Positions 4,446 to 38,738 of a DNA stretch of 64,000 nucleotides are shown here, piece after piece. Source of the stretch: Armatimonadota bacterium (GTDB lineage: Bacteria > Armatimonadota > Fimbriimonadia > Fimbriimonadales > Fimbriimonadaceae); NCBI GenBank assembly GCA_018268355.1, contig JAFDWR010000004.1:372404-436403 (forward strand), read 5' to 3'. The translations under genes and the position numbers were made by a program. The notes under the pieces were generated by a model, which saw only the letters and a program-made list of their open reading frames with translations, did no database searches and was not told the DNA's origin. Within the stretch, counting starts at the first letter, position 1, and every line of letters begins with the position of its first letter.

Positions 4446-5528
4446 ATGTCGCAAGAAAACGCCGCGCCTTCAAAGGGATTTCACATTCCATCGCTCGATG
4501 GGATTCGCGGCATCTCGGTGATGATCGTCTTCTTTGCCCATGCGGGGCTTGAGAAGATCATCCCCGGCGGCTTTGGCGTCACGATCTTCTTCTTCCTCAG
4601 CGGCTACCTCATCACGACGCTTCTGCGGCTCGAGTTTGCGAAGAACGGGAAGATCAGCCTGCCGAACTTCTACATGCGCCGCGCCTTGCGCATCTTCCCG
4701 CCGCTGTATCTCACCGTCATCGTCAGCGTGATCCTCGGCCTTGCGGGGCTGCTCCACGATCGCTGGAACTGGGAAGGGGTCTTTGGCAACTTCGCCTTTC
4801 TGACCAACTACATGGGCAACTGGGATTGGGTCGGCTCACCCGGTACGGGTCCGATGTGGTCGCTCGCGGTGGAGGAGCACTTTTATCTCATCTTCCCGGC
4901 CGTGTTCGCCTTTGGACTCGCGAAGATGCTGCCCAAGAACCGTGGCATCGCCTTGCTCGCCTTTTGCGCCCTAACGCTCGGATGGCGGCTGGTGCAGGCT
5001 TACTACCTGGGCTACGCGAACGTTCCCCAGGGCTTTGATCCCCGCATGTACGTCGCCACCGACAGCCGACTCGACAACATCGTCTTTGGCTGCATCCTCG
5101 CCCTTTGGGGCAACCCGATGATCGACGAGGATGCGAAGGCAAGGCCCATGCCTTGGGTTTGGATCGGCGTTGGCTTTGCGGGTCTGATTGCGATGCTCGT
5201 GCTGTTCCGCGGCGACAACGCCTTCCGCCATTCCTGGCGCTACACGATTCAGGGCCTTTGCTTGATTCCGGTGTTCAGTGGCGCGATCGGCCGGCACAAG
5301 GAGATCCCGTTCCGCTGGCTGAACGCGAAGTGGCTGCGCTGGGTCGGACTGATGTCTTACACGATCTACCTGGTCCACCTCATCGGCTTTGACCTCGTTG
5401 AGGAGCACATTACCAAGAGCTTCATGCCCAAGCTGCTCATCACGATGCCGCTCGTGCTGCTCTACGCGTGGTTGATGTATCGACTCGTAGAAAAGCCGAT
5501 GGCGTCGCTCCGTAAGCGCTACAACTAG
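4446..5528 (+). CDS. Acyltransferase 3 family membrane protein (OafA/WbpC-like)
   Basis: 360 residues from ATG 4446. A GTG at 4413 is also in frame, and neither has a clear ribosome site. The protein starts FHIPSLDGIRGISVMIVFFAHAG, the family's active-site histidine region, followed by GGFGVTIFFFLSGYLI and FYMRRALRIFPPLYL. The middle shows PMWSLAVEEHFYLIFP, another family hallmark. About ten hydrophobic segments follow, ending in LVEKPMASLRKRYN. These inner-membrane enzymes O-acylate surface polysaccharides, lipids or peptidoglycan; the acceptor here is unknown. The stop overlaps the stop of the convergent phosphatase gene. Confidence 0.92.
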   Translation: MSQENAAPSKGFHIPSLDGIRGISVMIVFFAHAGLEKIIPGGFGVTIFFFLSGYLITTLLRLEFAKNGKISLPNFYMRRALRIFPPLYLTVIVSVILGLAGLLHDRWNWEGVFGNFAFLTNYMGNWDWVGSPGTGPMWSLAVEEHFYLIFPAVFAFGLAKMLPKNRGIALLAFCALTLGWRLVQAYYLGYANVPQGFDPRMYVATDSRLDNIVFGCILALWGNPMIDEDAKARPMPWVWIGVGFAGLIAMLVLFRGDNAFRHSWRYTIQGLCLIPVFSGAIGRHKEIPFRWLNAKWLRWVGLMSYTIYLVHLIGFDLVEEHITKSFMPKLLITMPLVLLYAWLMYRLVEKPMASLRKRYN

Positions 5529-6277
5529 GAAGTTCGCAGGATGACGCCGACCGTGATGTCGTCGCCGCTGCCTTGATCGCTCGTCTGGCGGAGCCAGCCT
5601 TCGAGCTCGGCCTCCACCACTTCCGGCCCTTGCTGGCGAGCGGCTTGATAGAGGTCACTCGCGACGGCGAGGAACCCGGCTCGATCTTGGAACGACTTCG
5701 CGTAACCGTCCGTGCTCGCAAAGAGCATCGTCGGCTGCCAGTGATCAATCGGGTGATCGACGATCTGGAAGAGGTTGGCCGCGTTCTCGGTGCAGAGCGA
5801 GTTGGTGTCGTCGCCGAGGTCGGCGTTCCCGCTCTCAAAGAGGTCGATCACCTGCCCGGCTTCCGAGACCGCGAGGACATCGCCGTCGCCGAGCCGATAG
5901 GCAAAGATCCGCTCCGGGGTCACCGCCACGCCGAGCGCGGTGGAACCGAAAGGAATGGGGTCGTCGCCGAGTTCGCTGACCGCGGCACGCCATCGTTCGA
6001 CGAGCTTTTGGCCAAAGTTGTCCACGGATCCGCCCGCAAGGATGTCGAGGAGGAGCTGGCCGGCACATTCGACCGCCGCGCGCGCGCCTTCATCGCTCCG
6101 GGTGTAGCGTTCGCCACCATGACCGTCGGCAAGGGCGACAAAGCCCGCCCGGGTGCCGTCACGACCCATCATCAGGTCATCTTGATTCGGCTTTCCCTTG
6201 CGGATGTGGGTTGCCCCAATCACGGTCGAGCCAAAGAGGATCCACTGCGGCTCCTTTCGGCGTCGAAACCAGCTCAT
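5525..6277 (-). CDS. PP2C-type serine/threonine phosphatase
   Basis: 250 residues. It carries the metal-binding motifs of the PP2C fold: PNQDD (residues 30-34), ALADGHGGERYTRSDEGA (Asp51, Gly52), the LGDGDVLAV strand and a late SGDDITVGVIL. It is a soluble protein that dephosphorylates Ser/Thr residues using Mn or Mg. It lies nine bases downstream of the vWA gene on the same strand. A Ser/Thr kinase of unusual type starts 3 kb away on the other strand. The grouping of TerY-like vWA, PP2C and kinase is the 'TerY-P' type triad described for tellurite/stress-linked systems, so the phosphatase probably opposes the kinase at 9315. Confidence 0.93.
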   Translation of the reverse strand: MSWFRRRKEPQWILFGSTVIGATHIRKGKPNQDDLMMGRDGTRAGFVALADGHGGERYTRSDEGARAAVECAGQLLLDILAGGSVDNFGQKLVERWRAAVSELGDDPIPFGSTALGVAVTPERIFAYRLGDGDVLAVSEAGQVIDLFESGNADLGDDTNSLCTENAANLFQIVDHPIDHWQPTMLFASTDGYAKSFQDRAGFLAVASDLYQAARQQGPEVVEAELEGWLRQTSDQGSGDDITVGVILRTS

Positions 6278-6286
6278 GCGTGCCCC

Positions 6287-7048
6287 TTACCAAACGTCGG
6301 CGTCTGCCATCGGTGAGGGAGGCGGAGCAGGAATCGCGACGGGCTGCCAAGCGGGTTGGGGCGCAGGTGCCGGTGCAGGCGCGGCGGCCTGTGGCGCGGG
6401 CGCGGGTGCAGGAGGCGGCGCGGCCTCAGGCATCGCAACCGGTGTCGAAGCGGCCTTCAGCACGGCCGTGGAGGCCCACTTGATGTGCCGAATGAGCGCT
6501 TCGGGGTTGTTGGCGCGGAGCGGGCGAAGCTGGTTGCTGCCGATGAACTTTTGGAGCGACTCGTGGTCGGCGTCGGCGCCAATCGCGATCGCAACGCGGA
6601 CTGCCTTTTGGCCCCAGGGTTCCTTCATCAGCGCGGCGAGGCCGGCATCAAACTCGTCGGTGGGCTGGCCATCCGAGAGGAGCACGAGGACGGGCGGCAG
6701 CGCGCGGGATTCCATCGGAGGAACGCGGAGCTGGTCGGCGACCATGAAGAGGGCATTCCCGAGGTCGGTGACGCCATCGGCGCGAACGTCTTGCCACTCG
6801 AATTGCTCGACCGGGGTCGCCTTGGGCACGTTCCACTGCGCACCGGTTGCAAACGTGATCGAGCGGACAAAGACCTGGGCGTTCGGGTTCTCGTCGGCGG
6901 CATCGCGCATGTGCGGGATGGCCTCACGGATCGCGTTGTTGAGCGCCTGGATCTTGCCGTCATACGACATGGAACCCGAGGTGTCCACGATCCAAATGAA
7001 GTGCAGAGGGCGGTTGGCAATCGCTCCGCCAGGCATCTTGAGTGACAT
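6287..7048 (-). CDS. TerY-like von Willebrand factor A domain protein
   Basis: 253 residues from ATG 7046-7048. The upstream in-frame extension was rejected because the family begins directly with RPLHFIWIVDTSGSMS. A complete metal-ion site is present: DTSGS (Asp22, Ser24, Ser26), GVTDLG (Thr94) and LLSDGQPTD (Asp126). The later PWGQKAVRVAIAIG is also TerY-like. After residue 200 the zinc-ribbon found in some TerY proteins is absent. Instead there is a tail of about 40 residues made almost only of Pro and Ala, probably a flexible linker. It is cytoplasmic and co-transcribed with the PP2C gene (nine-base gap). By family precedent it is an adaptor or substrate-presenting partner for the kinase/phosphatase pair. 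Confidence 0.93.
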   Translation of the reverse strand: MSLKMPGGAIANRPLHFIWIVDTSGSMSYDGKIQALNNAIREAIPHMRDAADENPNAQVFVRSITFATGAQWNVPKATPVEQFEWQDVRADGVTDLGNALFMVADQLRVPPMESRALPPVLVLLSDGQPTDEFDAGLAALMKEPWGQKAVRVAIAIGADADHESLQKFIGSNQLRPLRANNPEALIRHIKWASTAVLKAASTPVAMPEAAPPPAPAPAPQAAAPAPAPAPQPAWQPVAIPAPPPSPMADADVW

Positions 7049-7165
7049 AGTTCTGCGCCTAGTGTAGCAACTCTCGAACCTGGCCCGGTGAAAGTTGAGA
7101 ATTTTTAGGTCTTCTTGCGTTAGAACAAGCAGCGCGATGGCGCGAATGGAGAAAGGAAAACAACG

Positions 7166-7450
7166 ATGTTTCGAAGAATTTACTGGGTGGTTGAGAATGG
7201 TTCGTCGGCGGAGAGCCGCACCGTGAAAGGCGTCTACACGTCGATCCCTGATTTGCTCAGCAAGGGCATGCATCACGAACGATCGGGGACGCGGTTGACC
7301 CTGGTCAAGCTCGATGCAGAAGAGGCCGTGCTCGGCACGTGGGACGGCCCCACGTTCTCGGGCGTGGTCGCGGGGATTGAGCCGTTTGTCAGCTCCGGGG
7401 AGATTCCGCGGGACCATCTGGATCAATTGACCCATGCACTAGGTCTCTAG
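7166..7450 (+). CDS. Hypothetical protein, 94 residues
   Basis: A good ribosome site (GAAAGGA, 8 bases before ATG 7166) supports this small gene. The product has no signal peptide or membrane segment: MFRRIYWVVENGSSAESRTV, GVYTSIPDLLSKGM, TRLTLVKLD and a Trp-Asp-Gly-Pro turn. The alternation of short strands suggests a small alpha/beta protein. It is divergent from the vWA gene (117-base gap) and followed 37 bases later by another small gene. I do not recognise a family. Confidence 0.7.
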   Translation: MFRRIYWVVENGSSAESRTVKGVYTSIPDLLSKGMHHERSGTRLTLVKLDAEEAVLGTWDGPTFSGVVAGIEPFVSSGEIPRDHLDQLTHALGL

Positions 7451-7487
7451 GCGCATCGTCCATTTCGATTTGGGGCAGACTGAGGGC

Positions 7488-8000
7488 GTGGAACCGATTC
7501 GGTATCGACCCTCAGATGCCCTTCGTTGGCTCGAAGATGGGGCCTCGGCCTCGCGTGAGCGGGCGAAGTCGAACTTCCGGAAGCTCGCGGACCTCGACCC
7601 CGGAACGGTGGTCGATAAGGTCGGCCAAGGCTTCAAGAAGGCAACGAGTGCGGTCATCGACTTTGGCAAGGGCGCGATGGCAGACCAGGCCGCCCGCAAG
7701 GCCGCCCTCGTCGAGTACGTCCTTCTCGACGACCGGATCGACATCGTGGAAGGGGCAACGATTCGCTCGATCCCGTATCGCGACGTCGTCGAATTCCGCG
7801 AGAAGGGCGACCGGATCACCGTGATCCTCCGCAAGGGGACCTACACCATAAAGCCGCTTGGCACCTTGGTCGCGGGCCGGGTGAAGGCAGTCATTGGCTG
7901 GGAGCGCAACGGCCTCGATGCGCCGTACCGACTGCTCGCCGAAGAATGGGCCGCGCGGTGTGGCCTCGACCTCGGCGAAGAGACCCCAAACCCAGGATAA
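7488..8000 (+). CDS. Hypothetical protein with a PH-like beta domain
   Basis: 170 residues from GTG 7488; TTG 7470 is an alternative. The first 75 residues are charged and helical. Residues 75-130 read YVLLDDRIDIVEG, TIRSIPYRDVVEFREK and DRITVILRKGTYTIKP. This is the strand pattern of bacterial PH-like domains, where 'iPY.dI..i....d.i.i......y.l' is typical. The C-terminus ends in LLAEEWAARCGLDL. The stop is ten bases before the spermidine synthase start, so the genes may be co-transcribed. The function is unknown. Confidence 0.72.
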   Translation: MEPIRYRPSDALRWLEDGASASRERAKSNFRKLADLDPGTVVDKVGQGFKKATSAVIDFGKGAMADQAARKAALVEYVLLDDRIDIVEGATIRSIPYRDVVEFREKGDRITVILRKGTYTIKPLGTLVAGRVKAVIGWERNGLDAPYRLLAEEWAARCGLDLGEETPNPG

Positions 8001-8010
8001 TCGAAGGCCT

Positions 8011-8838
8011 ATGGCCGAGAAGTTCTTCACCTTCCCGATTCGAGGAGAGAAGCTCAGCATGACGGTTGAGGTGGAGAATTGGGTCCACACGCGTCAAACC
8101 GAGTTCCAGCGGATCGACATCCTCGACACGCTCGCCTTTGGCCGCATCCTGCTTCTCGATGGCCATATCCAGCTCGCCACCCTGGACGAATTTGCCTATC
8201 ACGAGGCCCTTGTCCAGATGCCGATGCTCTCGATGGCAGCCCCGAAGCGCGCGCTCGTGATCGGAGGCGGTGACGGCGGCGTCCTCCGCGAGCTGGTGCG
8301 CCACTCGTCGCTCACCCACATCGACATGGTGGAGATCGACGCGGGCGTCGTTGAGGCGAGCAAGGAGTTCTTGCCGACCCTGAGCGCGGGTGCGTTTGAT
8401 GACCCCCGCGTCCACCTCCACATCGCGGATGCCTTCCCGTTTGTGAAGTCGATCACCGAGCCTTACGACCTCATCGTCGCCGATTCGACCGACGTTTATG
8501 AGGGCGAGGACGGCAACCTCAGCGAGATGCTCTTCACCCAAGGGTTCTATGAGGACTGCAAGCGCGCGCTCTCGAAGGACGGCTTCCTCGTGACCCAAGC
8601 CGACAACATCGTCTTTTGCCCCTACTCGGTGGAATCCATCCTCGAGCTGTTCGGCAAGGTGTTCCCGAAGGTTGGCCACTATGCGGGCATGGTGCCATCG
8701 TTTGGCGGCTATTCAGGCTATGCGTGGGCGAGCCATGGGGCGACGATCCGCCCGGATCTGGAACGCGCGAAGTCGCTCGGGTTGAGGTACCTCAACCCGG
8801 CAACCATTGGTCTCGCGGAAGCGAATTGGCCGTTCTAG
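8011..8838 (+). CDS. speE: Polyamine aminopropyltransferase (spermidine synthase)
   Basis: 275 residues starting at ATG 8011 after GAAGG. It transfers the aminopropyl group of decarboxylated S-adenosylmethionine to putrescine. Typical signatures are QRIDILDTLAFGRILLLDG, DEFAYHEALVQMPM, the nucleotide site VIGGGDGGVLREL, VEIDAGVVEASKEFLP, and the catalytic region IVADSTDVYEG (the usual form being DSTDP.G; here Val-Tyr follows). The longer open frame upstream overlaps the previous gene and is not needed. The partner enzyme SpeD is encoded 10 kb away, at 18851. The 3' end overlaps the convergent GNAT-like gene by four bases. Confidence 0.95.
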   Translation: MAEKFFTFPIRGEKLSMTVEVENWVHTRQTEFQRIDILDTLAFGRILLLDGHIQLATLDEFAYHEALVQMPMLSMAAPKRALVIGGGDGGVLRELVRHSSLTHIDMVEIDAGVVEASKEFLPTLSAGAFDDPRVHLHIADAFPFVKSITEPYDLIVADSTDVYEGEDGNLSEMLFTQGFYEDCKRALSKDGFLVTQADNIVFCPYSVESILELFGKVFPKVGHYAGMVPSFGGYSGYAWASHGATIRPDLERAKSLGLRYLNPATIGLAEANWPF

Positions 8839-9248
8839 GCCGAGCGTAGGCCCGCAGTGAGCGACTTCGACCAGATTCGGTTTTCGGTCGCCGTGTAGCC
8901 GAGGCGGTGCGCGATTCGCATGCCGACCTCGGTGGTCGGGCTCAGCTCTGCGGTCTGGCAGCGGCTCTTTTCGAGCTCACGCTCGAGCATGTGGATGATG
9001 AGCGAGGCCATCTCCTCGGAGAAGGGAAGCGCGGACGACCAGATCGCGTCGATACGGCCCCAACTGCCGCTCCAATAGGCCGTGCCACCGGCGATCAACA
9101 CGCCTTTGTCGCTTCGACCGAGCACCGCGACGTTGCCCCACTCAGGGCTCCGCTCGCCAGGGCTGAAGTCTTTCGACTCTTGGCGAATGCATTGATAATC
9201 AACAGGATCAAGCTCACGAGAAATAAAAAGTGAATAGCCAGGATGCAT
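8835..9248 (-). CDS. Putative GNAT-fold N-acetyltransferase
   Basis: 137 residues from the ATG at 9246-9248, which is preceded by GGAG at a good distance; an in-frame TTG lies 12 bases further out. The C-terminal half (FSEEMASLIIHMLERELEKS, then EVGMRIAHRLGYTATENRIW) looks like the last helices and strands of a GNAT protein, with the 'A..lG.......W' ending. The centre (WGNVAVLGR, GVLIAGGTAYWSGSWGRID) would be the beta strands before the acetyl-CoA loop, but a clear Q/R-x-x-G-x-G/A loop is not visible. The call is therefore moderate. It is divergent from the kinase at 9315. Confidence 0.6.
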   Translation of the reverse strand: MHPGYSLFISRELDPVDYQCIRQESKDFSPGERSPEWGNVAVLGRSDKGVLIAGGTAYWSGSWGRIDAIWSSALPFSEEMASLIIHMLERELEKSRCQTAELSPTTEVGMRIAHRLGYTATENRIWSKSLTAGLRSA

Positions 9249-9276
9249 GGAAAGCTCCAACCTTCATGGTCGGAGA

Positions 9277-9305
9277 TTCACAGGGAATCTCTAGGCCGAT
9301 ATACT
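9277..9305 (+). promoter_or_regulatory. Promoter of the kinase gene with overlapping inverted repeat
   Basis: TTCACA (9277-9282), a 17-base spacer and TATACT (9300-9305) make a good sigma70-type promoter. Transcription would start near 9312, only a few bases before ATG 9315, so the mRNA would be almost leaderless. The inverted repeat GAGATTC-5-GAATCTC (9273-9279 and 9285-9291) covers the -35 box and could be an operator. Confidence 0.6.
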
Positions 9306-9314
9306 GTTGAGGAA

Positions 9315-10610
9315 ATGGCGCTAGGTCAGTTGTTCCAGGAACAAGAGCAGATTCCCTTTGGGGCGACTGGTCTTCGGATCATTCGTTTGCTTGGAGCAGG
9401 TGGCCAAGGCGAGGTCTATGCCGCCGATGTTGGCGGTGAGGTGCTCGCCCTGAAGTGGTACTACCCCGCCTCCGCGACGAAGGAGCAACGCGCCGCCCTC
9501 CAGACCCTCGTTCGCAAGGGGTCGCCCGACGAGCGGTTCCTTTGGCCGATGGCAGTGGTCGAGGCGAAAGGCAAGGACGGCTTCGGCTACCTGATGCCGT
9601 TGCGACCGGCGCGCTTCAAGGGCCTTGTCGAGCTGATGAAGCGAAAGGTTGATCCGACGTTTCGCACCCTCGCGACGGCCGGATTTCACCTCGCCGACGC
9701 CTTTCTGCGACTCCACGCGCTGGGCCTTTGCTACCGCGACATCTCGTTTGGCAACGTTTTCTTTGACCCCGAGAATGGCGACGTCCTGATCTGCGACAAC
9801 GACAACGTGGCGGTCGACGACGGCAAGCTCCGAGGCGTCCAAGGCACCATGGGCTTCATGGCCCCCGAGATCATGTCGACCGGAGTTGCGCCAAGCACGC
9901 AGACAGACCTCTGGTCGCTCGCGGTGTTGCTGTTCCACATGTTCTGCTTTGGCCACCCGCTGGAAGGTGAGCGCGAGTTCGTCATCGAGTGCCTTGACCT
10001 CGAGGCGCGGCGCACGCTGTACGGCACCGACGGGCTCTTCATCTTCCACCCCGACGACGTCTCAAATCGGCCCAACCCGGAAGCCCACCCGAATCCGCTC
10101 GCGTTTTGGCCGCTCTACCCTGAGTTCTTCCGAGAGCGGTTCATCCAGACCTTTGTGAAGGGCCTGACGTCGCCCTATGCGCGGACCCGAGAAAGCGAGT
10201 GGAAGCTCGCCCTCATCCGTCTGCGTGACTCGATTGTGTATGGCCCGAGCGGCGCGGAGAACTTCTTCGACCCTGCCGAGCCGAGCCGCGACGACTGGGC
10301 ATCGGGTCAGCCGATCCAGTGGCCGCCGCGCCTCCACATTGGCAAGATCGACATCATGCTCAACTCCGATTGCGAGCTCTTTGCCCACCACGTCGATCCC
10401 GCGAAGCTTTACGAGTTCGGCGACCCGGTGGGGATCGTTGCCCAGCACCCGACGATGAAGGACCTTTGGGGCCTAAAGAACACCTCATCGACCTCGTGGA
10501 CGGCGAGCCTCAATGGCACCTCGCGCGAGGTGGAACCGGGGCGGTCGGTCACGATGGTCGGGGGTACCGAGATCAACTTCGGCAGCCAGATCGGCGTCAT
10601 TCTGGCCTAA
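9315..10610 (+). CDS. Atypical protein kinase with C-terminal FHA-like domain
   Basis: 431 residues. The upstream ATG at 9243 was rejected because a good promoter lies at 9277-9305, inside that extension. The kinase fold spans about residues 15-320. The Gly-rich loop is LGAGGQGEVY (26-35) and the lysine is in LALKWYY (Lys47). The catalytic loop is CYRDISFGNVFF (Asp142, Asn147), with Tyr in place of the usual His. The metal loop is CDNDN instead of DFG. MGFMAPEIMSTG is the APE motif, followed by TDLWSLAVLLFHM. Residues 370-431 form a beta-rich module (VGIVAQHP, WGLKNTSSTSW, EVEPGRSVTMVGGTEINFG) that is also present in two membrane proteins of this window. It is a soluble protein, probably paired with the PP2C and TerY-like genes at 5525-7048. 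Confidence 0.88.
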   Translation: MALGQLFQEQEQIPFGATGLRIIRLLGAGGQGEVYAADVGGEVLALKWYYPASATKEQRAALQTLVRKGSPDERFLWPMAVVEAKGKDGFGYLMPLRPARFKGLVELMKRKVDPTFRTLATAGFHLADAFLRLHALGLCYRDISFGNVFFDPENGDVLICDNDNVAVDDGKLRGVQGTMGFMAPEIMSTGVAPSTQTDLWSLAVLLFHMFCFGHPLEGEREFVIECLDLEARRTLYGTDGLFIFHPDDVSNRPNPEAHPNPLAFWPLYPEFFRERFIQTFVKGLTSPYARTRESEWKLALIRLRDSIVYGPSGAENFFDPAEPSRDDWASGQPIQWPPRLHIGKIDIMLNSDCELFAHHVDPAKLYEFGDPVGIVAQHPTMKDLWGLKNTSSTSWTASLNGTSREVEPGRSVTMVGGTEINFGSQIGVILA

Positions 10611-18850: not shown

Positions 18851-19447
18851 CTAGCGTCGGTCGACTTCGCTCTGGAGTCCGCGTCGGACGACCATGAACT
18901 TGGTTCGAGTCGGCTGGAAAGCCTCTTCGAGGAGTTCAAGTGCCTTGTGGACCTTGATCGTTCCACCGCAGTAGAACAGGTCGATCGCAGCGTAGCCGTG
19001 CTCGGGCCAGGTGTGAATCGTGTAGTGCGACTCCTGGATGATGACCGCGCCGCTCACGCCGTAAGGCTTGAACTCGTGGAACGACGTCTCCACGATGGTG
19101 GCTTCGCTGATCTTGGCGGCTTCGACCATCGCCTTGCCAACCGTCCGCTCGGCTTCGAGAAGCGAGCCATGACAGCCGAACATCTCGACGAGCAGGTGGG
19201 AGCCAAGGGAGGGTTCTTCGTCCTCCATGAACGGGAAGCCTTCTTCGTCGCGTCGAACCCACTCGTTAAACGTCGAGGGGTCATCGCTTCGGATGAGCGT
19301 CCAGCCTTCTTCACGCGTCACGACAGGTGCGGCAGTTGCCGGCTGTGCTTTGCGTCGAAGGAAGTTTCGAATGCGACCCAGGGGTCGGGTGGGAGCGGCA
19401 ATTGCTGCCGCGAGAACTGAGCTAACAAGGATGTAGATGCTGGCCAC
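18851..19447 (-). CDS. speD: S-adenosylmethionine decarboxylase proenzyme with N-terminal membrane anchor
   Basis: 198 residues from GTG 19445-19447 with GAGG nine bases upstream. The enzyme makes decarboxylated SAM for SpeE. The self-cleavage site is in IIQESHYTIHTWPEHGYAAI: cleavage between Glu139 and Ser140 would create the pyruvoyl group. His145 and Cys160 (DLFYCG) are the usual catalytic pair. Ordinary bacterial SpeD has about 120-130 residues with the Ser near 63-68, so this one carries about 75 extra residues. The first 20 are hydrophobic (IYILVSSVLAAAIAA), followed by basic RPLGRIRNFLRRK, which predicts a membrane-tethered enzyme. It has its own promoter and terminator. Confidence 0.94.
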   Translation of the reverse strand: MASIYILVSSVLAAAIAAPTRPLGRIRNFLRRKAQPATAAPVVTREEGWTLIRSDDPSTFNEWVRRDEEGFPFMEDEEPSLGSHLLVEMFGCHGSLLEAERTVGKAMVEAAKISEATIVETSFHEFKPYGVSGAVIIQESHYTIHTWPEHGYAAIDLFYCGGTIKVHKALELLEEAFQPTRTKFMVVRRGLQSEVDRR

Positions 19448-19829: not shown

Positions 19830-21191
19830 CTAGCGAATCACGGTGATATCCCAGCCTTTTTTCCACTGGGCTTTGATCCACTCCTCCGGATAGACATTTC
19901 CGAAGGTAACGCTCTGATCTTCGATCTCCGGATCGCGGGCAAAGACGAGCAGCCAGTCGCCCTTGAAGTTGTGAACGGAGACGAGGAATTCCTTCTTCTC
20001 CTTCTTCTCGCGGATCTGCTTTTGGTCGATCTGGGTGGCGGTTGTCCAGCTCGTGTCCACGCGGGCGTCGGACTTTTGGTCCATGAGGTGGATGATGTTG
20101 GGCCCCGAGGTCTCCAGCGTGGCGATGGTGAAGCCGTCGGCCCACTTCTTCTGGACCCACTCCTTGTCATAGACCGAATTCACGTTGTACGACTGGTTCT
20201 TGAACTCACTCGACTTGGTGAAGACGATGTTCCAGGCGTTGGTTCCATAGACGCAGGTCGTCACGTAGTAGCCGTTCGACCATCGCTTCTTGATTTCGTC
20301 GGTGGGGAAGGTGGTGCTGCGGAAGAGCTGCTGCTCGCCGTAGTTGATGCCCTTGGCATAGAGCACGACCCAGCGGTTGGTGCCCTCGGCAAGGTTGGTG
20401 ATCCTCCACCCGTTGTCGAGTCGCTCCTGGATCTCCTTTTTGGCTTCCATCAGGTTCTCGCCGCGGTAGATGACGTAGGCCTGGTCGGTGAGGGGCTTCT
20501 TTCGCTTCGAGGAGACGACAACCCAGCGCTCGGTGCCCGTCTGGCGCTGGATGGTGAGCATCGATTTCACTTCGTTGATCGCGACCGCGAAGTTGAGGTT
20601 CTCGCCCTCTTTGCGCTTGAAAACGTTGACGCCAATGACATTGCCCTTCAGGTCGAAGAGCGGTCCGCCGGAGTTTCCGGGCGAGATCGCCGCGCTGAAC
20701 TGGATGTAGGTTGGCGGGGTGCCCTTGGGCAGCATCTTCTGCCAATCGAGGGGGCGGCGCGCACTCACAATGCCGATCGTCGACGTGAAGGCGAGGCCAT
20801 AGGGCGAACCGATCGCGAGGACAGTGTCGCCGTCGCGAAGGGTGTTCGAGTCGCCGAGGGCACAAGGCTTGTAGGTGCCAGGCTCGAGCTTGAGGATGGC
20901 GATGTCGCGCTCGGCGTCGACGTATTCGACGGTCGGCACCTTCTTCTTGGTGCCGTCATCAAAGGTGGCTTCGATGGATTGATATTTCTCGACGACGTGG
21001 GCGGCGGTGACCACCCGTCCGTCGGTGGAGACGATGAACCCGGTGCCGGTGGACATCATCTTGTCGTCGACGTCGACCCTTAGGCTCACCACCGACGGCT
21101 TCACCTTTTCGATGAGGTCGGGCAGGTTCGGCGGGCTTCCTTGGCCACCACGAAGGGCCACCAGGCAGGTCAAAGTCGCGAGCAAAGGCAT
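19830..21191 (-). CDS. Exported trypsin-like serine protease with C-terminal tryptophan-rich repeats
   Basis: 453 residues. A signal-like start (MPLLATLTCLVALRGGQG) precedes a DegP-type protease domain with TAAHVV (His65), ERDIAILKL (Asp96) and SPGNSGGPLF (Ser174), so the triad is complete. Instead of PDZ domains, residues 215-453 carry about five repeats of some 45 residues. Their form is 'eW/I...w..Gw.It.l..g...Wvvv', for example IQERLDNGWRITNLAEGTNR, IKKRWSNGYYVTTCVYGTNA and WIKAQWKKGWDITVIR. These resemble the DUF7477-type repeats known from some kinases, but that link is tentative. The repeats probably bind a target outside the cytoplasm. Confidence 0.88.
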   Translation of the reverse strand: MPLLATLTCLVALRGGQGSPPNLPDLIEKVKPSVVSLRVDVDDKMMSTGTGFIVSTDGRVVTAAHVVEKYQSIEATFDDGTKKKVPTVEYVDAERDIAILKLEPGTYKPCALGDSNTLRDGDTVLAIGSPYGLAFTSTIGIVSARRPLDWQKMLPKGTPPTYIQFSAAISPGNSGGPLFDLKGNVIGVNVFKRKEGENLNFAVAINEVKSMLTIQRQTGTERWVVVSSKRKKPLTDQAYVIYRGENLMEAKKEIQERLDNGWRITNLAEGTNRWVVLYAKGINYGEQQLFRSTTFPTDEIKKRWSNGYYVTTCVYGTNAWNIVFTKSSEFKNQSYNVNSVYDKEWVQKKWADGFTIATLETSGPNIIHLMDQKSDARVDTSWTTATQIDQKQIREKKEKKEFLVSVHNFKGDWLLVFARDPEIEDQSVTFGNVYPEEWIKAQWKKGWDITVIR

Positions 21192-26478: not shown

Positions 26479-27296
26479 ACTTGACCGAGCCGGGAGTCCT
26501 CAAGGGGCTCCTCGCGAAGCACAATCTATCAGCAAACAAGGGCCTGGGGCAGCATTTTCTCTGCTCCGGGCCCATTGTTTCTAAGATTGTCGAGGGTCTT
26601 GCCGGTTCGGCATCGGTGCTCGAAGTTGGTCCCGGCCCAGGAATCCTCACCGGTCCCCTTTCCGACGCATTTGCCGAGGTCGTCGCGCTCGAGATTGATG
26701 AGCGAATGCCATCGGTGCTCGCCGAAAGTGCTCCCAAAGCCAAAGTGGTGCTCGGCGACGTCCTCGAAGTCGACCTTCGCAGCGTGCTCGAACCCCTGTC
26801 AGCCCCTCGCGGGTTCGTTTCCAACATCCCGTACTACATCACCGGGCCGATCCTCACCAGGGTGGCTGAGTGCGCCGACCTCATCGAAGGCGCGGTGCTC
26901 ATGATGCAGCGCGAGGTCGCCCAGCGCATCCTCGCCCCGGCCGGAAACTCTGATCGAGGCTCGCTCAGCGTTTTCCTGCAATCCCATTTCACGATCAGCA
27001 AGGTCTGCGATGCGCCGCCCGGCGCATTCATGCCCCCGCCCAAGGTGCAAAGTCAGGTCCTCAAACTGGTCCCGCGGGCACTTCCGGTTGAACCGGAAGA
27101 GAAGGACCGCTACTTCCGGCTCATCAGAGGATCGTTCGGCCAGCCGCGCAAGACCCTCGCCAACAACCTGCGGGCGGGAATGAGCCTCAGCAAGGAAGCG
27201 GTCGATGAGGCGCTAAAAAAGGCCGGATTCGACGAGCGAATCCGGCCTTTCCAGTTGACCGAAGACGAATGGGTCCGTCTTCTGCGCTCTATTTAA
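26475..27296 (+). CDS. rsmA: 16S rRNA (adenine1518/1519-N6,N6)-dimethyltransferase
   Basis: 273 residues from GTG 26475, which overlaps the upstream stop. It methylates two adjacent adenines in helix 45 of 16S rRNA. The family motifs are NKGLGQHFL, VLEVGPGPGILTGPL, ALEIDERM, the catalytic NIPYYI and the C-terminal RGSFGQPRKTLANNL. Length is standard. The 3' end overlaps the convergent protease gene by eight bases. Confidence 0.97.
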   Translation: MNLTEPGVLKGLLAKHNLSANKGLGQHFLCSGPIVSKIVEGLAGSASVLEVGPGPGILTGPLSDAFAEVVALEIDERMPSVLAESAPKAKVVLGDVLEVDLRSVLEPLSAPRGFVSNIPYYITGPILTRVAECADLIEGAVLMMQREVAQRILAPAGNSDRGSLSVFLQSHFTISKVCDAPPGAFMPPPKVQSQVLKLVPRALPVEPEEKDRYFRLIRGSFGQPRKTLANNLRAGMSLSKEAVDEALKKAGFDERIRPFQLTEDEWVRLLRSI

Positions 27297-28401
27297 GCGC
27301 AAGTCCGTCGCACTCGGTTCCGGGCAAGAATCGCTTCCGGACCTCGTCAATCGAGATGCCGTAGTTCAAGCCAGTCACCGCTTGGAACTGCCCCTTGGCG
27401 ACTTCAAGGTCGCGGTAGATCAGCCGGGTCACCGCAACGACATCGCCGTTGGCATTCACCATCGCGCCGCCCGAGTTGCCGTGGTTGACGTTGGCGTCGG
27501 TCTGGAGGATCTGCGACCCTTCATAGCCCTTGATGCCCAGCGGGCCAAAGACCTGATTCACGTCGCGAAGACCGGTGTAGACGCCCTTGGCGACCGACGA
27601 TTCCACCTTCGAAACCTGACCACCGAGCGGGTAGCCGATGGTCCAAATCTCTTCGCCGATCTTCAGCTCGCTCGGCGAGACCATCTTAAGGAAGACGCCG
27701 GTCGTCTTTTCGACCTTGATGAGCGAAACGTCGAGGGTTGCGTCGGTCTTTAGGACTTTGGCGGTCGTTTGGGTGCCACCGGGGAGCACGACGGTGACGG
27801 TTTCCGCGCCCATCGTGACGTGGTTATTGGTGAGCGCATGGCCCTGATCGTCGATGAAGAAGCCGGAGCCTTCACCCGCTTGCTGGCCCACTTCGGCGTG
27901 AATCAGGAAGACCGCCTTTTGGGCGCGGTTGACGTTCTCGATCGACTGCGCGGTGGTGTCGGGGGTCTTCTTCATCAAGGCGAAGGCAAGCGCACCGATG
28001 AGGAGCAACCCGATCACCGACATGAAGATCGTTCGACCCTTGCTCGCGAGGAAGGCGGCTCCCGACGAAAGCGGTTGGACCTGGGCCTGCGATTGGGCCG
28101 AGAAGTGAACGACCATCCCCGGGACGAGTCGAACGCTCTTTGACGGTTCGATCGTCAGCTGACGACCGTCGGGCATCACGGCGTTCCAAGTCGTCTTCGA
28201 GCAATTCGTTAACCCGATGACATTTCGATCTTGAGGACTTTCACGCACGACGGCCACGGCAGGGTCGCCCGTTGAAGGGAAAAGCTCAGGAATGTCATCT
28301 CGGAGGAACTTCCGCTCCTTGAGGAGGGGAACCGATTTCCCGTTTCCGAAGACTAATTGCAAGGGACCGGTCGGAGCTTGTGGCGTAGGCGAGGGTTGCA
28401 T
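27289..28401 (-). CDS. Membrane-anchored trypsin-like protease with N-terminal FHA-like domain
   Basis: 370 residues. Residues 13-110 form a beta-rich FHA-like module (LQLVFGNGKSVPLL, VVRESPQDRNVIGLTNCSKTTW, GRQLTIEPSKSVRLVPGMVVHF). Residues 125-143 are one membrane helix. Residues 160-370 are a DegP-like protease with His194 (LTNNHV), Asp224 (ATLDVSLIKV) and Ser310 (NHGNSGGAM). The likely topology is cytoplasmic FHA-like domain and external protease. A membrane protein joining an internal phospho-reading-type module with an outer protease could carry kinase signals across the membrane. It is divergent from the vWA-like genes at 28454 and 29839. AAGGA precedes the start. Confidence 0.88.
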   Translation of the reverse strand: MQPSPTPQAPTGPLQLVFGNGKSVPLLKERKFLRDDIPELFPSTGDPAVAVVRESPQDRNVIGLTNCSKTTWNAVMPDGRQLTIEPSKSVRLVPGMVVHFSAQSQAQVQPLSSGAAFLASKGRTIFMSVIGLLLIGALAFALMKKTPDTTAQSIENVNRAQKAVFLIHAEVGQQAGEGSGFFIDDQGHALTNNHVTMGAETVTVVLPGGTQTTAKVLKTDATLDVSLIKVEKTTGVFLKMVSPSELKIGEEIWTIGYPLGGQVSKVESSVAKGVYTGLRDVNQVFGPLGIKGYEGSQILQTDANVNHGNSGGAMVNANGDVVAVTRLIYRDLEVAKGQFQAVTGLNYGISIDEVRKRFLPGTECDGLALK

Positions 28402-28453: not shown

Positions 28454-29761
28454 ATGAAACCCGTTTGGCGAGGCGTGATATGGACCCTCTTTGCCGCTAT
28501 CGTGAGCGCGGCCGCCATTCTCGTCGAATCATGGCTTGCGCCAAACCCGGTTGCCAAGGTCGAGCCGCTCAGTATTGTCGTGCTCGTTGACCTTGCGGAG
28601 AACCAAAAAGACTGGACCGCGCTGCCTTCTCGCTTTGCCACCGCCGCGAGCCGAAAAGGCTATGTCGTCTGGACTGCTGGGTTCAATTCCGATGTTTCCC
28701 CGGTGGACCTCAACACTCTCCCGACCGTGAGAGTCTCCCCTGAACAACCGGGCGGGCTCGAGCGCGGACTTGAGGCGGCCCAGACCGCACTCGGCGCGAC
28801 GAACGGGCCGAAGCTGATGACGATCTGGCTCAACCGTCGCCAAATCACCACCGAGGAGCGACGGCTCGCGGGTCGGCTCACCCGAGAAGGTTGGCTCGTC
28901 GCGGTTTATGGCAGCCAGGAAGCCTATCCGGCAAATCTGCGGCTGCTCGCGAGCGGCGATGAACTCGCCTTCCGCGAGAACGAACTCGGCCCCGACCGCG
29001 TGTTGCGACGCGCGCTTGCCGATCTTGACCGCAGCGCGGCCCGACTCGAAGGTGCGTTCCAAGGCTACCGTCCTCCGCGAAAGGGAGCAATCCAGCTCGC
29101 GCTGACCACGTTGCTCCTCACCCTCGGGATTGGGGCGTTTCAGGTTCGGCGAGTGGGTCTGCGGCTCAACCCGGTTTGGGTGGGAACCGAGGTGCTGATC
29201 AGCTTTGTCATCGGGTTCCTTACGCTCATTTTCAATTTCGAGACGATGTTGCCGTTTGTCGGGCTTATGGTCGCCCTGAGTGTGAGTTACCGGCAGCGCA
29301 ATCCACATTGGACGGCTCTTTTCGTGCTCGGTGGCATCGGGTTGCCGATGCTCGGCTACCTGCATTCTTTGCGCGGCGACCTCCTGTTCGTCCCTGCGAT
29401 TATCGTCTTCGTTGCCGCGCTCGCCTTGGTCGATTGGTGGCCGGGCCGCAACTACGTACAGCTGAGTTGGCGAGGCCAGACCGAGGCCTTCCGTCTCGGG
29501 CGAGATGACATTCGGGTGGGTTCGGCCGAACCGAGCGATTGGGCGGTCGAGGGGATGCCAGATCGGCTCGGCATCATCCGCGTGCGTGGCCAAGTGGCCG
29601 AGATGCTCGTGGAGGGCCGAAAGGACGTGGTCCCGCTCTACGCGAACCACCAACAGTGGGTGGACGCGCTGAATATTCGCCTGGTTGGGGACTATTTGGC
29701 CCCTCGCGGCGTTGCAGTGGTGGAAGTCGAAGAGGCGGCGCGACGGATTGGGCTTCACTAG
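28454..29761 (+). CDS. Membrane protein with degenerate vWA-like and FHA-like domains
   Basis: 435 residues. A helix at residues 5-27 is followed by a vWA-like alpha/beta domain (about 35-200: LSIVVLVDLAENQKDW, GGLERGLEAAQTALG, GPKLMTIWLN, EGWLVAVYGSQEA). In it the metal-binding DxSxS is replaced by DLAEN. About five more helices follow (212-340). The end (EAFRLGRDDIRVGSAEPSDW, MPDRLGIIRVRGQ) resembles the first half of an FHA domain. The same architecture occurs in the next gene, with VGS, LGR and a M.D.LG.....GQ core conserved between them. It is therefore a paralogue pair, co-oriented and 77 bases apart. The family has no name I know. Confidence 0.8.
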   Translation: MKPVWRGVIWTLFAAIVSAAAILVESWLAPNPVAKVEPLSIVVLVDLAENQKDWTALPSRFATAASRKGYVVWTAGFNSDVSPVDLNTLPTVRVSPEQPGGLERGLEAAQTALGATNGPKLMTIWLNRRQITTEERRLAGRLTREGWLVAVYGSQEAYPANLRLLASGDELAFRENELGPDRVLRRALADLDRSAARLEGAFQGYRPPRKGAIQLALTTLLLTLGIGAFQVRRVGLRLNPVWVGTEVLISFVIGFLTLIFNFETMLPFVGLMVALSVSYRQRNPHWTALFVLGGIGLPMLGYLHSLRGDLLFVPAIIVFVAALALVDWWPGRNYVQLSWRGQTEAFRLGRDDIRVGSAEPSDWAVEGMPDRLGIIRVRGQVAEMLVEGRKDVVPLYANHQQWVDALNIRLVGDYLAPRGVAVVEVEEAARRIGLH

Positions 29762-29838: not shown

Positions 29839-31626
29839 GTGACCGGTTTTCGCATCAAAAAGATCCTTTGGTTTGTGGTCGTGGGGGCCCTTTGTGCCGT
29901 TCTCGGTCGCGGGCTTGCTCGTTTCCTCCCCAAGTCGTGGTCGGAGAAGCAGGCGAAGTCCGTCACGGTTGCCGTTCTGCTCGATACGGGTTCGTTTGAC
30001 AACAACCAGTGGGAGCGAGAGAGCCCGATTGCCCGCGCGGCGTATGAGTTTTCCCGGCGCGTGAAGGCGGAAGGCACCCTGAAGCGAGACGTCTGGGGTT
30101 GCACGTTCAACGACATCGCCCAGGCCACGCCGATCACCAAGTTCAACCCGATCATCACCGTCCCCGCGATCAACGGAGGCCTCGAACAGGCGATCAAGCT
30201 CGCGAAGACGACCCTCGGGTCGAAGCCGGGCGCGAAGTACCTCGTGATCTTCCTCAACCGGCCGAGCGTGAGCTTTGAGGCGACGGAAACCGCGCGCTCG
30301 CTCCGCGAGCAGGGCTGGATGATCATGGTTTATGGCGCGCCGAAGTGCAATGCCAACTCCATCCGTCAGCTCGTGGAACCGGCAGAACGTGCCTTCCGCG
30401 TGGAATCGAGCGCAAAGATGCCGGACATGGCGAATCGCGCCGTGCAGCAATACCTTCGCGCGGAGCCGACCCTGGTGGAGTCCGGACTCGACAATTCTCC
30501 CCTTGGCGGCGCGCTGAAGAAGGCGATTCTCGGCTTGCTGCTTGCCCTCGGCCTCGGACTCGTCGAATGCCGGATGAGCCGGACGAGTTGGATCCCCTCG
30601 ATCTATGCCGGGCTCGTCGCGGCGTTGCTTGCCCTCGCGGCAGGTCTCTTTCTGGGGCCGCTCGGCGCGGGACTCTGGCTTTGGGGCGTGCCTGCGGTGG
30701 TCGCGGTGCTCTTTGCCCAGCCAACCAAGATTCTCGCGGGAACGGTGGGCGGCTTTGTGCTCTGGGCGCTGATCGGCATCATGCCGATGGCGGACAAGTG
30801 GCAGGTCTTCTTGTTCCTCGGCGCCGCGCTTGGGTTCCTCCTTGGTGTCGGCCAGTTTTTTCCATTCGGACCGACGGTCTTCGTGAAAACCGGAAGCGCT
30901 GAGACGTGGTTCAAGCTGGGCCGGAAGCCGGTCGAGGTCGGCTCGGGACCCGATGCCGACGTTCATCTCCCGGTGATGGCGGACTCGCTGGGCAGCTTCT
31001 TCGCGAAGGGGCAGACGCCTTACTTCCTCGACGAGATGACCAAGAAGATCTCGACCCTGCCGACGCCCGGGAAGCTGACGCTTGGCGTGCTTGAGGTCGA
31101 ATCAAGCGGATTGCCGCCCGTTTTTGCCGAGCCCGCGCAAGAAGCACCTGCCGCCGCGCCCGCTCCCGAACCCAAGAACCCGTTCAGGTCAGTTCCAGAG
31201 TCGTATGCGGAGGCACCCGCCCCCGAACCCAAGCAACCAGAGGTTCCTGCCTTCATCGCTGGTCCCGCCCCAACCGCTGAATCAACGACCGATTCGACCC
31301 TGATTACACCCACCGGTCCATTGGGGCTCGCGATGGAAGGTGGGCTGGTACGGCTCGATGTGGGCACCGAACTCACGATGGACAACTGTCCGTCGGCCTT
31401 TCCGGGCCCCGGAGGAGCGGTCGGGATGGTCCTTCCGCATCCAACCCTCGAGGGCACGATGGGCATGCAAAACCGATCGGGCGCATCCTGGATGGTGCAA
31501 ACGCCAGAAGGTCGAACGCTCACGGTGGCAGTCGGCAAGACGATTCGCCTCATTCCAGGTTCGATCATCTCGTTCGGTCAGGGCCGCGCGACCGTCGTGG
31601 AAATCGGCAAACCCGGCGAAGACTAG
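29839..31626 (+). CDS. Membrane protein with vWA-like domain and two FHA-like domains
   Basis: 595 residues from GTG 29839 (GAAGG upstream). Helix 10-30 precedes a vWA-like domain (38-210: SVTVAVLLDTGSF, NGGLEQAIKLAKTTLG, KYLVIFLNRPS, EQGWMIMVYGAPKC) with a DTGSF variant of the metal site. Helices span about 215-330. The first FHA-like module (about 355-400) contains FKLGRKPVEVGSGPDADV. A Pro/Ala/Glu linker (430-490) with the repeated AEAPAPEPK-like units follows. The second FHA-like module (526-590) contains GMVLPHPTLEGTMGMQNRSG, AVGKTIRLIPGSIISFG. The last module matches those of the kinase at 9315 and the protease at 27289. It may be a membrane receptor or scaffold of the same signalling system. 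Confidence 0.82.
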   Translation: MTGFRIKKILWFVVVGALCAVLGRGLARFLPKSWSEKQAKSVTVAVLLDTGSFDNNQWERESPIARAAYEFSRRVKAEGTLKRDVWGCTFNDIAQATPITKFNPIITVPAINGGLEQAIKLAKTTLGSKPGAKYLVIFLNRPSVSFEATETARSLREQGWMIMVYGAPKCNANSIRQLVEPAERAFRVESSAKMPDMANRAVQQYLRAEPTLVESGLDNSPLGGALKKAILGLLLALGLGLVECRMSRTSWIPSIYAGLVAALLALAAGLFLGPLGAGLWLWGVPAVVAVLFAQPTKILAGTVGGFVLWALIGIMPMADKWQVFLFLGAALGFLLGVGQFFPFGPTVFVKTGSAETWFKLGRKPVEVGSGPDADVHLPVMADSLGSFFAKGQTPYFLDEMTKKISTLPTPGKLTLGVLEVESSGLPPVFAEPAQEAPAAAPAPEPKNPFRSVPESYAEAPAPEPKQPEVPAFIAGPAPTAESTTDSTLITPTGPLGLAMEGGLVRLDVGTELTMDNCPSAFPGPGGAVGMVLPHPTLEGTMGMQNRSGASWMVQTPEGRTLTVAVGKTIRLIPGSIISFGQGRATVVEIGKPGED

Positions 31627-33317: not shown

Positions 33318-33319
33318 GT

Positions 33320-33343
33320 GAATACGTATTCGTATACGTATTC
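33320..33343 (+). promoter_or_regulatory. Near-perfect 24-base palindrome, probable LacI-family operator
   Basis: GAATACGTAT-TCGT-ATACGTATTC: the 10-base arms are exact inverted repeats around a 4-base centre, and a shorter perfect palindrome GAATACGTATTC lies within. It covers the predicted transcription start of the regulator, so binding would block its own promoter. Confidence 0.7.
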
Positions 33344-33353
33344 CAGGGTGCCA

Positions 33354-34379
33354 ATGAGGGTAACTCAAGCGGATATTGCAAAGATCGCAAACGTCAGTCA
33401 GGCCACAGTATCGCGGGTCTTGGCAGGCGATGATCATGTCGAACCCATCCTCCGCGACAGAGTCCTCCGCATCATGCGGGAAAAGAACTACCGTCCCGAC
33501 GTCCGCGCCCGGAGCCTGCGACTTCAACAGACAAACCTGATCGGTCTCGTGCTCAAACGACCGCGCGGAGCTCTCGTCGACGATCCGTTCTTTGCTGCGC
33601 TTACTTCTGGAATCGTCGACGCTCTCGCGGCCAAGCCGTACCACCTCTGCCTCGACTACGTTACGGACCAAGCGTCCCAAGAGCACGTTTACGACGAGAT
33701 GCTTCGCTCGCGCCGCGTCGATGGCCTCATCCTCGTCGAGCCGACCGCTCGTGACGAGCGCGTTGAGCTTCTCCAGAGGGACAAGTTCCCGTTCGTCATC
33801 ATCGGTAATCCCCACAACGACGAGATCGCGAGCATCGACAACGACAACGTCGTGGCGGGTCGGATCGGAACCGAGCACCTGATCTCCCGCGGGTATCGAA
33901 AGATCGTTTTCCTTGCCGGTCCCGAAGGATTTGTCTTCTCCGACGACCGCGTTGACGGTTATGTCCAGGCGATGGTCGATGCCGGCCTGCAGCCCCGCGT
34001 GGTCCACTGCGCCTTTGGTCTTGAGGCGGCGCGCGATGCCTCGCTTGCGCTCTTCGACGGTCCGGATTGTCCGGACGCGATGCTTGTCCTCGACGATTTT
34101 ATGGCTTACGGCACCTACATGGCGGCCCGAAGCCGCTACATGGAAGTGCCGGATGAGCTCGGCATCGTTGGCTTCAACGACTCGCTGCTCTGTCGAATGG
34201 CAGAAGGCGGCCTGACCTCGGTGAGCTTGAACCTCGACCTCATGGTTCGCCGGGCGGTGGCCAAGCTCCTCGACATCATCGAATCGGGTCAAGTCACGAC
34301 CCCGGCCCGCGAGATCGTGCCGTGTGCGATTTCGGTGCGCGGTTCATCGTCGTCCGCGCGAGGTGTGGTGCAGAAATGA
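33354..34379 (+). CDS. LacI-family transcriptional regulator
   Basis: 341 residues from ATG 33354 (AGGGTG upstream). A GTG at 33318 falls in the operator and was rejected. The helix-turn-helix is VTQADIAKIANVSQATVSRV (residues 3-22), followed by the hinge-type segment NYRPDVRARSLR. The periplasmic-binding-like ligand domain contains LIGLVLKRP, DGLILVEPTA, FPFVIIGNPH, IVFLAGPEGF and ELGIVGFNDSLL. The stop overlaps the GH13 start (ATGA). The context (glycoside hydrolases and sugar transporter) predicts control of oligosaccharide use, with a maltodextrin-like inducer. Confidence 0.94.
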   Translation: MRVTQADIAKIANVSQATVSRVLAGDDHVEPILRDRVLRIMREKNYRPDVRARSLRLQQTNLIGLVLKRPRGALVDDPFFAALTSGIVDALAAKPYHLCLDYVTDQASQEHVYDEMLRSRRVDGLILVEPTARDERVELLQRDKFPFVIIGNPHNDEIASIDNDNVVAGRIGTEHLISRGYRKIVFLAGPEGFVFSDDRVDGYVQAMVDAGLQPRVVHCAFGLEAARDASLALFDGPDCPDAMLVLDDFMAYGTYMAARSRYMEVPDELGIVGFNDSLLCRMAEGGLTSVSLNLDLMVRRAVAKLLDIIESGQVTTPAREIVPCAISVRGSSSSARGVVQK

Positions 34380-36529: not shown

Positions 36530-37332
36530 AAACTCTCAAGAAGGGCTTTACGCTCATTGAACTTCTGGTCGTCATCGCGATCATCGCGATTCTCGCGGCC
36601 ATTCTCTTCCCTGTGTTTGCCTCTGCGAAGGATGCCGCTAAGAAGGCTGCCTCGATTTCGAACCTGAAGCAAACCGTGATGGGCTCGATCCTTTATATGA
36701 CCGATGCTGACGACAAGCTCACCGTCACCCAATGGCCTTCGTGGTACATCAACGTGGCGCGCGAACAGGCTTACGTCAAGAATCGCGACATGTACAAGGC
36801 AGCCAACTCGCCCTGGAAGCAGGGTGCGATGCAGCGCCGAGAAGCCGACAACGGTTCGGGCAACTACATGTTCGACCCGGTGGACGGATGCGTTGGCCTC
36901 CAGCCTTCGACGGCCGGTCTCCCCTACTACCAGGATGTTTATCCGCCTCTCGACTACGAAGCCAACAGCTCGCTCTTCAGCTGGACTCAGACCAACTGTA
37001 CGGGTCGATGGTGGCCGAGCGGTAACGGCGGCGTTCAGCAGGGCAAGACCCAGAACGACGGTGAAATCACCGACATCGCCAAGGTTGTCCTTTGGATCCA
37101 GTTCCCGCAGGCCTTCTTCCAATGGCCGGGCGGCACTTCGGGCCCGTCGGCTGCCTTCTGGGGCGCCAACTTCCGCGGTTACCACGCTGAGGGTAGCGTC
37201 GTCGGTCACTTCGACGGCCACGCCAAGTACTACAAGTTCCAGAAGCTTCTCCCGCGAGGCGTGGAGTGGAGCGGTGCGAACGTTGAGTGGAAGGCTTGGG
37301 GCTTCAGCTGGGGCGATCCTTCGGTCCAGTAA
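36526..37332 (+). CDS. Type II secretion-type pseudopilin with prepilin cleavage motif
   Basis: 268 residues. KKGFTLIELLVVIAIIAILA gives the prepilin peptidase site after Gly and the N-terminal helix. FPVFASAKDAAKKAASISNL continues it as in the armatimonad/planctomycete pseudopilin families. The C-terminal part contains HAEGSVVGHFDGHAKYYKF, a variant of the 'H..G.nv.f.DGH.k' ending of these proteins. The start overlaps the GH13 stop by ATGA, so it is translationally coupled to the enzyme. Such proteins sit in a pseudopilus or at the surface; a role in starch binding or enzyme export is inferred only from position. Confidence 0.92.
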   Translation: MKTLKKGFTLIELLVVIAIIAILAAILFPVFASAKDAAKKAASISNLKQTVMGSILYMTDADDKLTVTQWPSWYINVAREQAYVKNRDMYKAANSPWKQGAMQRREADNGSGNYMFDPVDGCVGLQPSTAGLPYYQDVYPPLDYEANSSLFSWTQTNCTGRWWPSGNGGVQQGKTQNDGEITDIAKVVLWIQFPQAFFQWPGGTSGPSAAFWGANFRGYHAEGSVVGHFDGHAKYYKFQKLLPRGVEWSGANVEWKAWGFSWGDPSVQ

Positions 37333-37342
37333 GAACGAGTCT

Positions 37343-37370
37343 TGGGGCGGCGGAACCTTCCGCCGCCCCA
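37343..37370 (+). terminator. GC-rich intercistronic hairpin
   Basis: TGGGGCGGCGGAA-CC-TTCCGCCGCCCCA, 13-base arms, ten bases after the pseudopilin stop. No T-run follows, so it is more likely an attenuator or mRNA stabiliser than a full terminator. Confidence 0.6.
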
Positions 37371-37380
37371 GCCTTAACGC

Positions 37381-37611: not shown

Positions 37612-37796
37612 GCGGTTCGGGCAATAGCTAACGATTTCGGGAGGCCTTGGGCGATCTGATGGATCGATCCGGGCCTCGACGAGAAAAGTGTCGACTCGAC
37701 GAGAGGGCTCCTTTGGAGCAACCTTGACGAGGAGTCAAATGGAATCTGTCATGGGGCATGATGCCCATTCTGTGGAGGAAACTAGAGAACGTGAAA

Positions 37797-38726: not shown

Positions 38727-38738
38727 GTCCAAATCTAT

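Follow-up and report, generated by a model that had tools for sequence, protein, structure and literature searches.

Three genes of an Armatimonadota bacterium (family Fimbriimonadaceae), located in a 64,000-nucleotide stretch of contig JAFDWR010000004.1 that was analysed as a whole and is called the window here, encode a PP2C-family phosphatase, a TerY-like vWA protein and a protein kinase. These are the components of the TerY-P triad, which the passages of PMC11090510 that treat it (citing Anantharaman et al. 2012) describe as a TerY-like vWA protein, a PP2C and a Ser/Thr kinase with a C-terminal zinc ribbon. In the window, the vWA and PP2C genes occupy the minus strand and the kinase gene the plus strand, with four open reading frames (ORFs) between the two halves:

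5525–6277, minus strand: PP2C-family phosphatase of 250 aa, encoded downstream of the vWA gene in the vWA-PP2C operon (PF13672, E 2.5e-34)
6287–7048, minus strand: TerY-like vWA protein, 253 aa (PF00092, E 2.6e-6), with an intact metal ion-dependent adhesion site (MIDAS; DxSxS...T...D)
7166–7450, plus strand: 94-aa ORF between the triad halves, without a family match
7470–8000, plus strand: 176-aa conserved protein between the halves, a core gene of the lineage
8011–8838, plus strand: speE, spermidine synthase, a core gene between the halves (PF01564, 1.1e-50)
8835–9260, minus strand: 141-aa ORF, without a family match
9243–10610, plus strand: TerY-P-type kinase (PF00069, E 6.2e-15), likely start at ATG 9315

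The long ORF of the vWA gene extends to 7435; the conserved protein begins at ATG 7048, and the starts of its relatives agree with this. The vWA and PP2C genes, both intact, have a gap of nine bases between the stop of the first and the start of the second, which agrees with the minus-strand operon proposed in the initial annotation of this DNA. The kinase was said to lie on the plus strand 2.3 kb away, and 2,267 bases do separate the vWA start from ATG 9315, the probable kinase start given that residues 1–20 are modelled with a confidence (pLDDT) below 50 and that relatives begin near residue 25. A promoter belonging to the kinase alone had also been proposed, and this was not established: the scan ahead of the gene found one σ70-like site with 10 of 12 matches (9277–9305), and the two σ70-like sites of the upstream region compare with 0.9 ± 1.0 in shuffled sequence.

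Motifs characteristic of each family are kept in all three proteins. In the PP2C translation, DGHGG, STDG and GDD are visible and the family columns are conserved, while the D, S, S, T and D columns of the vWA MIDAS are each conserved in 73/73 sequences. The window vWA then continues through a proline/alanine-rich linker to a C-terminal ...DADVW, and an acidic-aromatic C-terminus of this kind is typical of the family vWA proteins. Trp falls within the last four residues of 61/72 vWA proteins, as against 0/86 kinases and 0/67 PP2Cs; by clusters at 80% identity, 38 of 49 have a member with this Trp.

The kinase keeps K71, D166, N171 and D185, residues that are retained in 87/88 (K71), 88/88 (D166 and D185) and 70/88 (N171, as Asn) of the family kinases. 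Its AlphaFold2 model (pLDDT 92) has a protein-kinase fold, and a sequence search of solved structures returned generic protein kinases only, among the matches listed. It had been called atypical for its YRD and DND motifs. Both are present, but they prove to be the family norm, and the idea of a peculiarity of the window was dropped: Y-x-D is kept in 88/88 kinases (the window's included), and ICDNDNV occurs in 9/9 sequences of an alignment (A1) gathered without that pattern. The corresponding 88/88 for D-x-D-N is biased, since the collection scan selected by the ICDNDN pattern, and 9/9 is the fair figure.

Relatives of the kinase were drawn from 291 genomes of the phylum, plasmids, 80 loci of a contig collection and 6 viral-contig loci. 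Altogether 97 loci were examined, and 87 have a kinase of at least 200 bits with the family profile; 13 of these were set aside as incomplete, the locus ending within 3 kb of the kinase, which leaves 74. Near-duplicates (for example L053/L054, L075/L092, L076/L077 and L120/L135) were counted separately in the locus counts. In 65 of the 74 untruncated loci, the kinase, vWA and PP2C genes share one direction and lie within 6 kb, and in a named Prevotella plasmid example genes for a TerY-C protein, kinase, vWA and PP2C follow one another. The divergent layout of the window, with PP2C and vWA opposed to the kinase, recurs in two loci, both from Nocardioides (L083 and L091) and both with no genes between. 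Of the remainder, one locus is spread over 6.2 kb and six are without one or both partners.

The window proteins match the triad profiles with 275 bits (vWA), 144 (PP2C) and 514 (kinase), scores that are inflated because these proteins were among the seeds. Identity to the 22 nearest loci is 43–71% for the vWA and 42–53% for the kinase. Moreover, bit scores against the three window proteins are correlated across 68 loci (rho 0.77 for kinase and vWA, 0.82 for kinase and PP2C, 0.74 for vWA and PP2C), as would be expected if the three genes travel together, though overall relatedness of the organisms contributes. That the PP2C, vWA and kinase belong together as intact parts of a single TerY-P-type triad is well supported by these sequence comparisons, and the initial description of a TerY-P-like triad interrupted by speE and small genes holds, with four ORFs between the halves. 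Judged from the proteins, the case for a TerY-P-type triad is strong; the set is classed as a variant and not as typical TerY-P because contiguity and the zinc ribbon, two described features, are not found here. The absence of ter genes was borne out in part: TerD (PF02342) has no match across the whole genome, a search that was not extended genome-wide to other ter families.

A close kinase (47–53% identity) occurs in seven genomes of the phylum besides the organism's own, none of them from its family, and these other members have the ordinary contiguous layout where the contig extends far enough. Within the family, vWA similarity was found in one of 84 other genomes (G109, E 2.1e-21), which carries two diverged sets without the tail domain discussed below, a vWA-kinase pair (L036:471-2496) and a contiguous vWA-PP2C-kinase set (L048:1057-3859). 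These are other subfamilies. Scattering of the three genes in close relatives had been named as an observation that would speak against the triad; it has no application here, since close relatives are without these genes. In a phage collection, the kinase had one partial match.

The second main observation concerns the tail of the kinase, a kinase C-terminal domain (KCD; residues 362–455, 10326–10607). A search of 4,749 ORFs, taken from the loci and the window, with a profile built from 87 kinase tails gave three matches outside the counted kinases: L094_8541 (E 7.7e-12) and two window proteins encoded 17–21 kb from the kinase, a protease and a membrane protein termed VM2. The genes of this cluster are as follows:

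27289–28401, minus strand: protease with KCD, transmembrane (TM) segment and trypsin-like domain, 370 aa (PF13365, 4e-27; KCD profile, E 1.8e-17)
28454–29761, plus strand: VM1 membrane protein, 435 aa, a VM2 paralogue without KCD (blastp VM1-VM2, E 1.4e-13; TM segments)
29839–31626, plus strand: VM2 membrane protein, 595 aa, with a C-terminal KCD at residues 504–586 (KCD profile, E 3.3e-12)

The KCD was found in 13 of the 291 phylum genomes, and strong matches outside kinases and broken kinase fragments were confined to the organism's own genome, which has two. The KCD fragments of three other genomes (G025, G076 and G064) appear to be remains of broken kinases, and weak KCD-like matches in G083 (2.1e-6) and G214 (1.3e-5, a kinase-like protein) were not used as support. 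Nor was a further weak match in G032 (2.3e-5; L241:523-2480), which lies at the N-terminus of a transglutaminase-domain protein beside a vWA and is a possible additional carrier. L094_8541 looks by eye like a decayed kinase copy with a KCD; this copy (L094:8541-9800) stands directly before an intact kinase and is possibly a pseudokinase partner.

The KCD is predicted to adopt the β-sandwich fold of FHA domains. The protease KCD was modelled from an alignment of 46 tails (pLDDT 89); the model compares with 5w7x at a VIA Z of 11.5 and a root-mean-square deviation of 2.2 over 92 residues, with FHA chains throughout the list, and its best Foldseek E is 1.9e-3. In the protease, the KCD (about residues 16–108) is followed by a TM segment (117–147) and a trypsin domain (178–324) with H, D and S motifs discernible by eye, and the KCD probably lies on the cytoplasmic side. 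VM1 and VM2 are paralogues with several TM segments each; relatives of VM2 were found in none of the 290 other phylum genomes and none on plasmids or viral contigs. In Nocardioides L083 an independent parallel to the protease follows the kinase immediately: its gene codes for two Pfam FHA domains, then a TM segment and a trypsin domain; the other divergent Nocardioides locus, L091, has no trypsin match.

A third observation concerns a domain of about 100 residues, without a Pfam match, found at the N-terminus of proteins beside the triads in 56 of the 87 loci. This triad-neighbour domain is fused to FGE, Lcl_C, WD40, TPR, Sel1, SH3_3, YARHG and other domains, and in relatives a TM segment is predicted after it in 19 of 70 such proteins. 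The window has no copy of it; the two copies in the rest of the genome are in the proteins AD1 (8.8e-29) and AD2 (1.4e-8), where a linker and then a TM segment follow the domain, with a further part after that. The genes of these TM proteins (L207:7281-8489 and L208:7705-8952) are distant from the triad as well as from one another. Among the 291 phylum genomes the domain was found in 18 and a close kinase in 8, both being present in all 8; the domain thus occurs in 8/8 genomes with the kinase and in 10/283 without (Fisher 3.8e-11, uncorrected for phylogeny, and with three of the eight genomes belonging to one genus).

Considering these observations together, it seems reasonably probable that the window and its genome hold a functional TerY-P-type phospho-switch with dispersed genes and outputs at membrane proteins, the identity of the triad being read from sequence and the coupling inferred. 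The kinase would phosphorylate its partners, perhaps including the vWA, and the PP2C would take the phosphate off again. The vWA, with its MIDAS and conserved C-terminal acidic-Trp tail, could act as a scaffold or reader. The FHA-fold tail of the kinase would serve as the coupling domain, with its copies, probably on the cytoplasmic side, carried by the single-pass trypsin-like protease and the polytopic VM2. Because these copies sit on membrane proteins, the state of the switch is proposed to control proteolysis or signalling at the envelope, and AD1 and AD2 may be additional outputs reached through the triad-neighbour domain. The initial annotation had suggested an armatimonad variant coupled to membrane effectors. 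A lineage trait is not supported by the comparisons, since the family relatives searched have no close kinase and the other phylum members that have one show the contiguous layout where the contig extends far enough. The membrane link is probable, because the KCD is common to the kinase and membrane proteins, the triad-neighbour domain occurs on TM proteins, and L083 has its FHA-TM-trypsin gene.

Coupling of this kind likely follows the logic of effector-associated domains (EADs), set out in section 30 of PMC7159879, whereby a core component bears one copy of a small domain without enzymatic function and effectors encoded nearby or elsewhere in the genome bear further copies. The KCD copies on kinase, protease and VM2 within one genome resemble that arrangement; they differ in being all-β, with a predicted FHA fold, whereas the EADs listed in the same text are α or α+β, and no Pfam EAD matched among the neighbour-domain proteins scanned. 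A more specific version may be offered tentatively. The tail of TerY-P-type kinases might be a non-canonical FHA-fold coupling domain, copied here to a protease and VM2 to yield a kinase/phosphatase-gated trans-membrane protease, and the Asp-x-Trp tail of the vWA might be the peptide bound by the KCDs or the kinase.

Several observations weigh against this picture of a working membrane-directed switch. The kinase has no conserved αC glutamate (Q87 in the window; E in 23/88), and its zinc-ribbon region (about residues 330–361), though still alignable, has zero cysteines. At least three are present in 83/88 family kinases; there are none in the window kinase, L094, L119 and the truncated L137, and one in L148. 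With ribbon cysteines and αC glutamate both absent, the regulation of the kinase is hard to read. The KCD has no PF00498 match, the hhalign probability of KCD against FHA profiles is 0.9%, and the canonical FHA loop residues R, S and N were not seen at their expected positions (placement by eye), which makes phospho-threonine reading by the KCD doubtful. The KCD cluster is 17 kb distant from the triad, the topology of the protease is itself a matter of inference, and vWA- and FHA-like domains first read by eye in VM1 and VM2 failed profile comparison and were discarded. Trypsin-like neighbours are rare, occurring in 2/87 other family loci, L083 and L121 (a trypsin-PDZ protein near the kinase); of these only the L083 protein is fused to FHA, and its FHA is of the Pfam type, not a KCD. 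Finally, core genes separate the triad halves, so co-regulation of the halves does not follow.

The distance of the KCD cluster also speaks for the alternative that fares best, though we regard it as rather unlikely. The triad would be an ordinary, if split, TerY-P regulator acting through proteins of the AD1/AD2 type, and the KCD protease with VM1 and VM2 would be a separate envelope system with a borrowed tail domain. This would fit both the regular occurrence of the neighbour domain beside triads and the near absence of KCDs on non-kinases elsewhere. However, the sole genome of 291 with an intact, strong non-kinase KCD also has the kinase, and the Nocardioides L083 parallel links kinase and membrane protease at one locus.

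Another alternative is an antiphage or stress-defence module with the membrane protease as suicide effector. The text of PMC11090510 on TerY-P modules ties them to defence, beside restriction systems, and the patchy distribution would be in keeping with this. We nevertheless think a defence role improbable, as no restriction, nuclease or ter families were seen among the window proteins scanned, PADLOC gave a weak TerY match (0.0077) and kinase-domain matches only, and the neighbours are housekeeping genes. Least likely of all, because catalytic sites, metal sites and tail are intact, is a decaying remnant of a horizontally acquired triad whose signalling has ended, for although the operon is broken, the ribbon cysteines and αC glutamate are gone and the family relatives searched have no close homologue, all ORFs are open, the main kinase residues, MIDAS, PP2C motifs and C-terminal DVW are kept, and KCD copies and two AD proteins are retained in a 2.7-Mb genome.

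Among described systems, the TerY-P triad itself is the nearest: the window has its three proteins, each with homologues in contiguous triads, and differs in its split by four genes on divergent strands, its cysteine-free ribbon, its lack of TerD and a kinase tail domain common to membrane proteins. The account in PMC7159879 of an actinobacterial kinase with zinc ribbon and “beta-strand-rich domain”, which occurs with a PP2C and a standalone vWA beside GAP1-N2 GTPase systems, describes in words the same kinase architecture, and this domain is probably the KCD, by description only. The passages in question mention no KCD carried by a protease or by a membrane protein. The KKP module of Pf prophages, a PP2C and two kinases, one with FHA (PMC11341870), is comparable as a kinase-phosphatase module in which, according to that text, an FHA domain matters for activity; it is a different gene set, and the text searched mentions a vWA nowhere (0 occurrences). 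The literature searched, which did not include the founding TerY-P paper, did not describe an FHA fold for the KCD, KCDs on proteases or the vWA tail, and the novelty of all three is provisional.

As for the intervening genes, the 176-aa gene is present in 16 of 21 genomes searched (the organism's own included) and stands away from triad genes in the loci read; its product is probably outside the TerY-P-type system. Relatives have speE orthologues too, in other gene surroundings: the speE neighbourhoods of 14 relatives have almost nothing in common with the window, and the idea that synteny is conserved around the interrupting genes was rejected. Either breakage of the triad by inserted core genes or its arrival in two pieces could account for the split. 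The window also has a second polyamine gene, for S-adenosylmethionine decarboxylase (18851–19447), 10 kb from the speE inside the split triad and on the opposite strand. The interval from the triad to the KCD protease cluster also includes genes for a MoxR-type AAA ATPase (PF07726, 17652–18599) and for a second trypsin-like protein (19830–21191), which ends in a DUF7477 region and has no KCD match. Further along, 33318–48858 encodes a LacI regulator, amylases, parts of a sugar ABC transporter (one a fused binding protein-permease) and a GH31 protein, apparently an α-glucan utilisation cluster.

Judging from record titles, TerY-P-type triads are found in many phyla, and their targets are largely unknown. 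The KCD carried by both a kinase and a membrane protease, together with the conserved Trp tail of the vWA, would provide concrete handles on how such switches reach their outputs.

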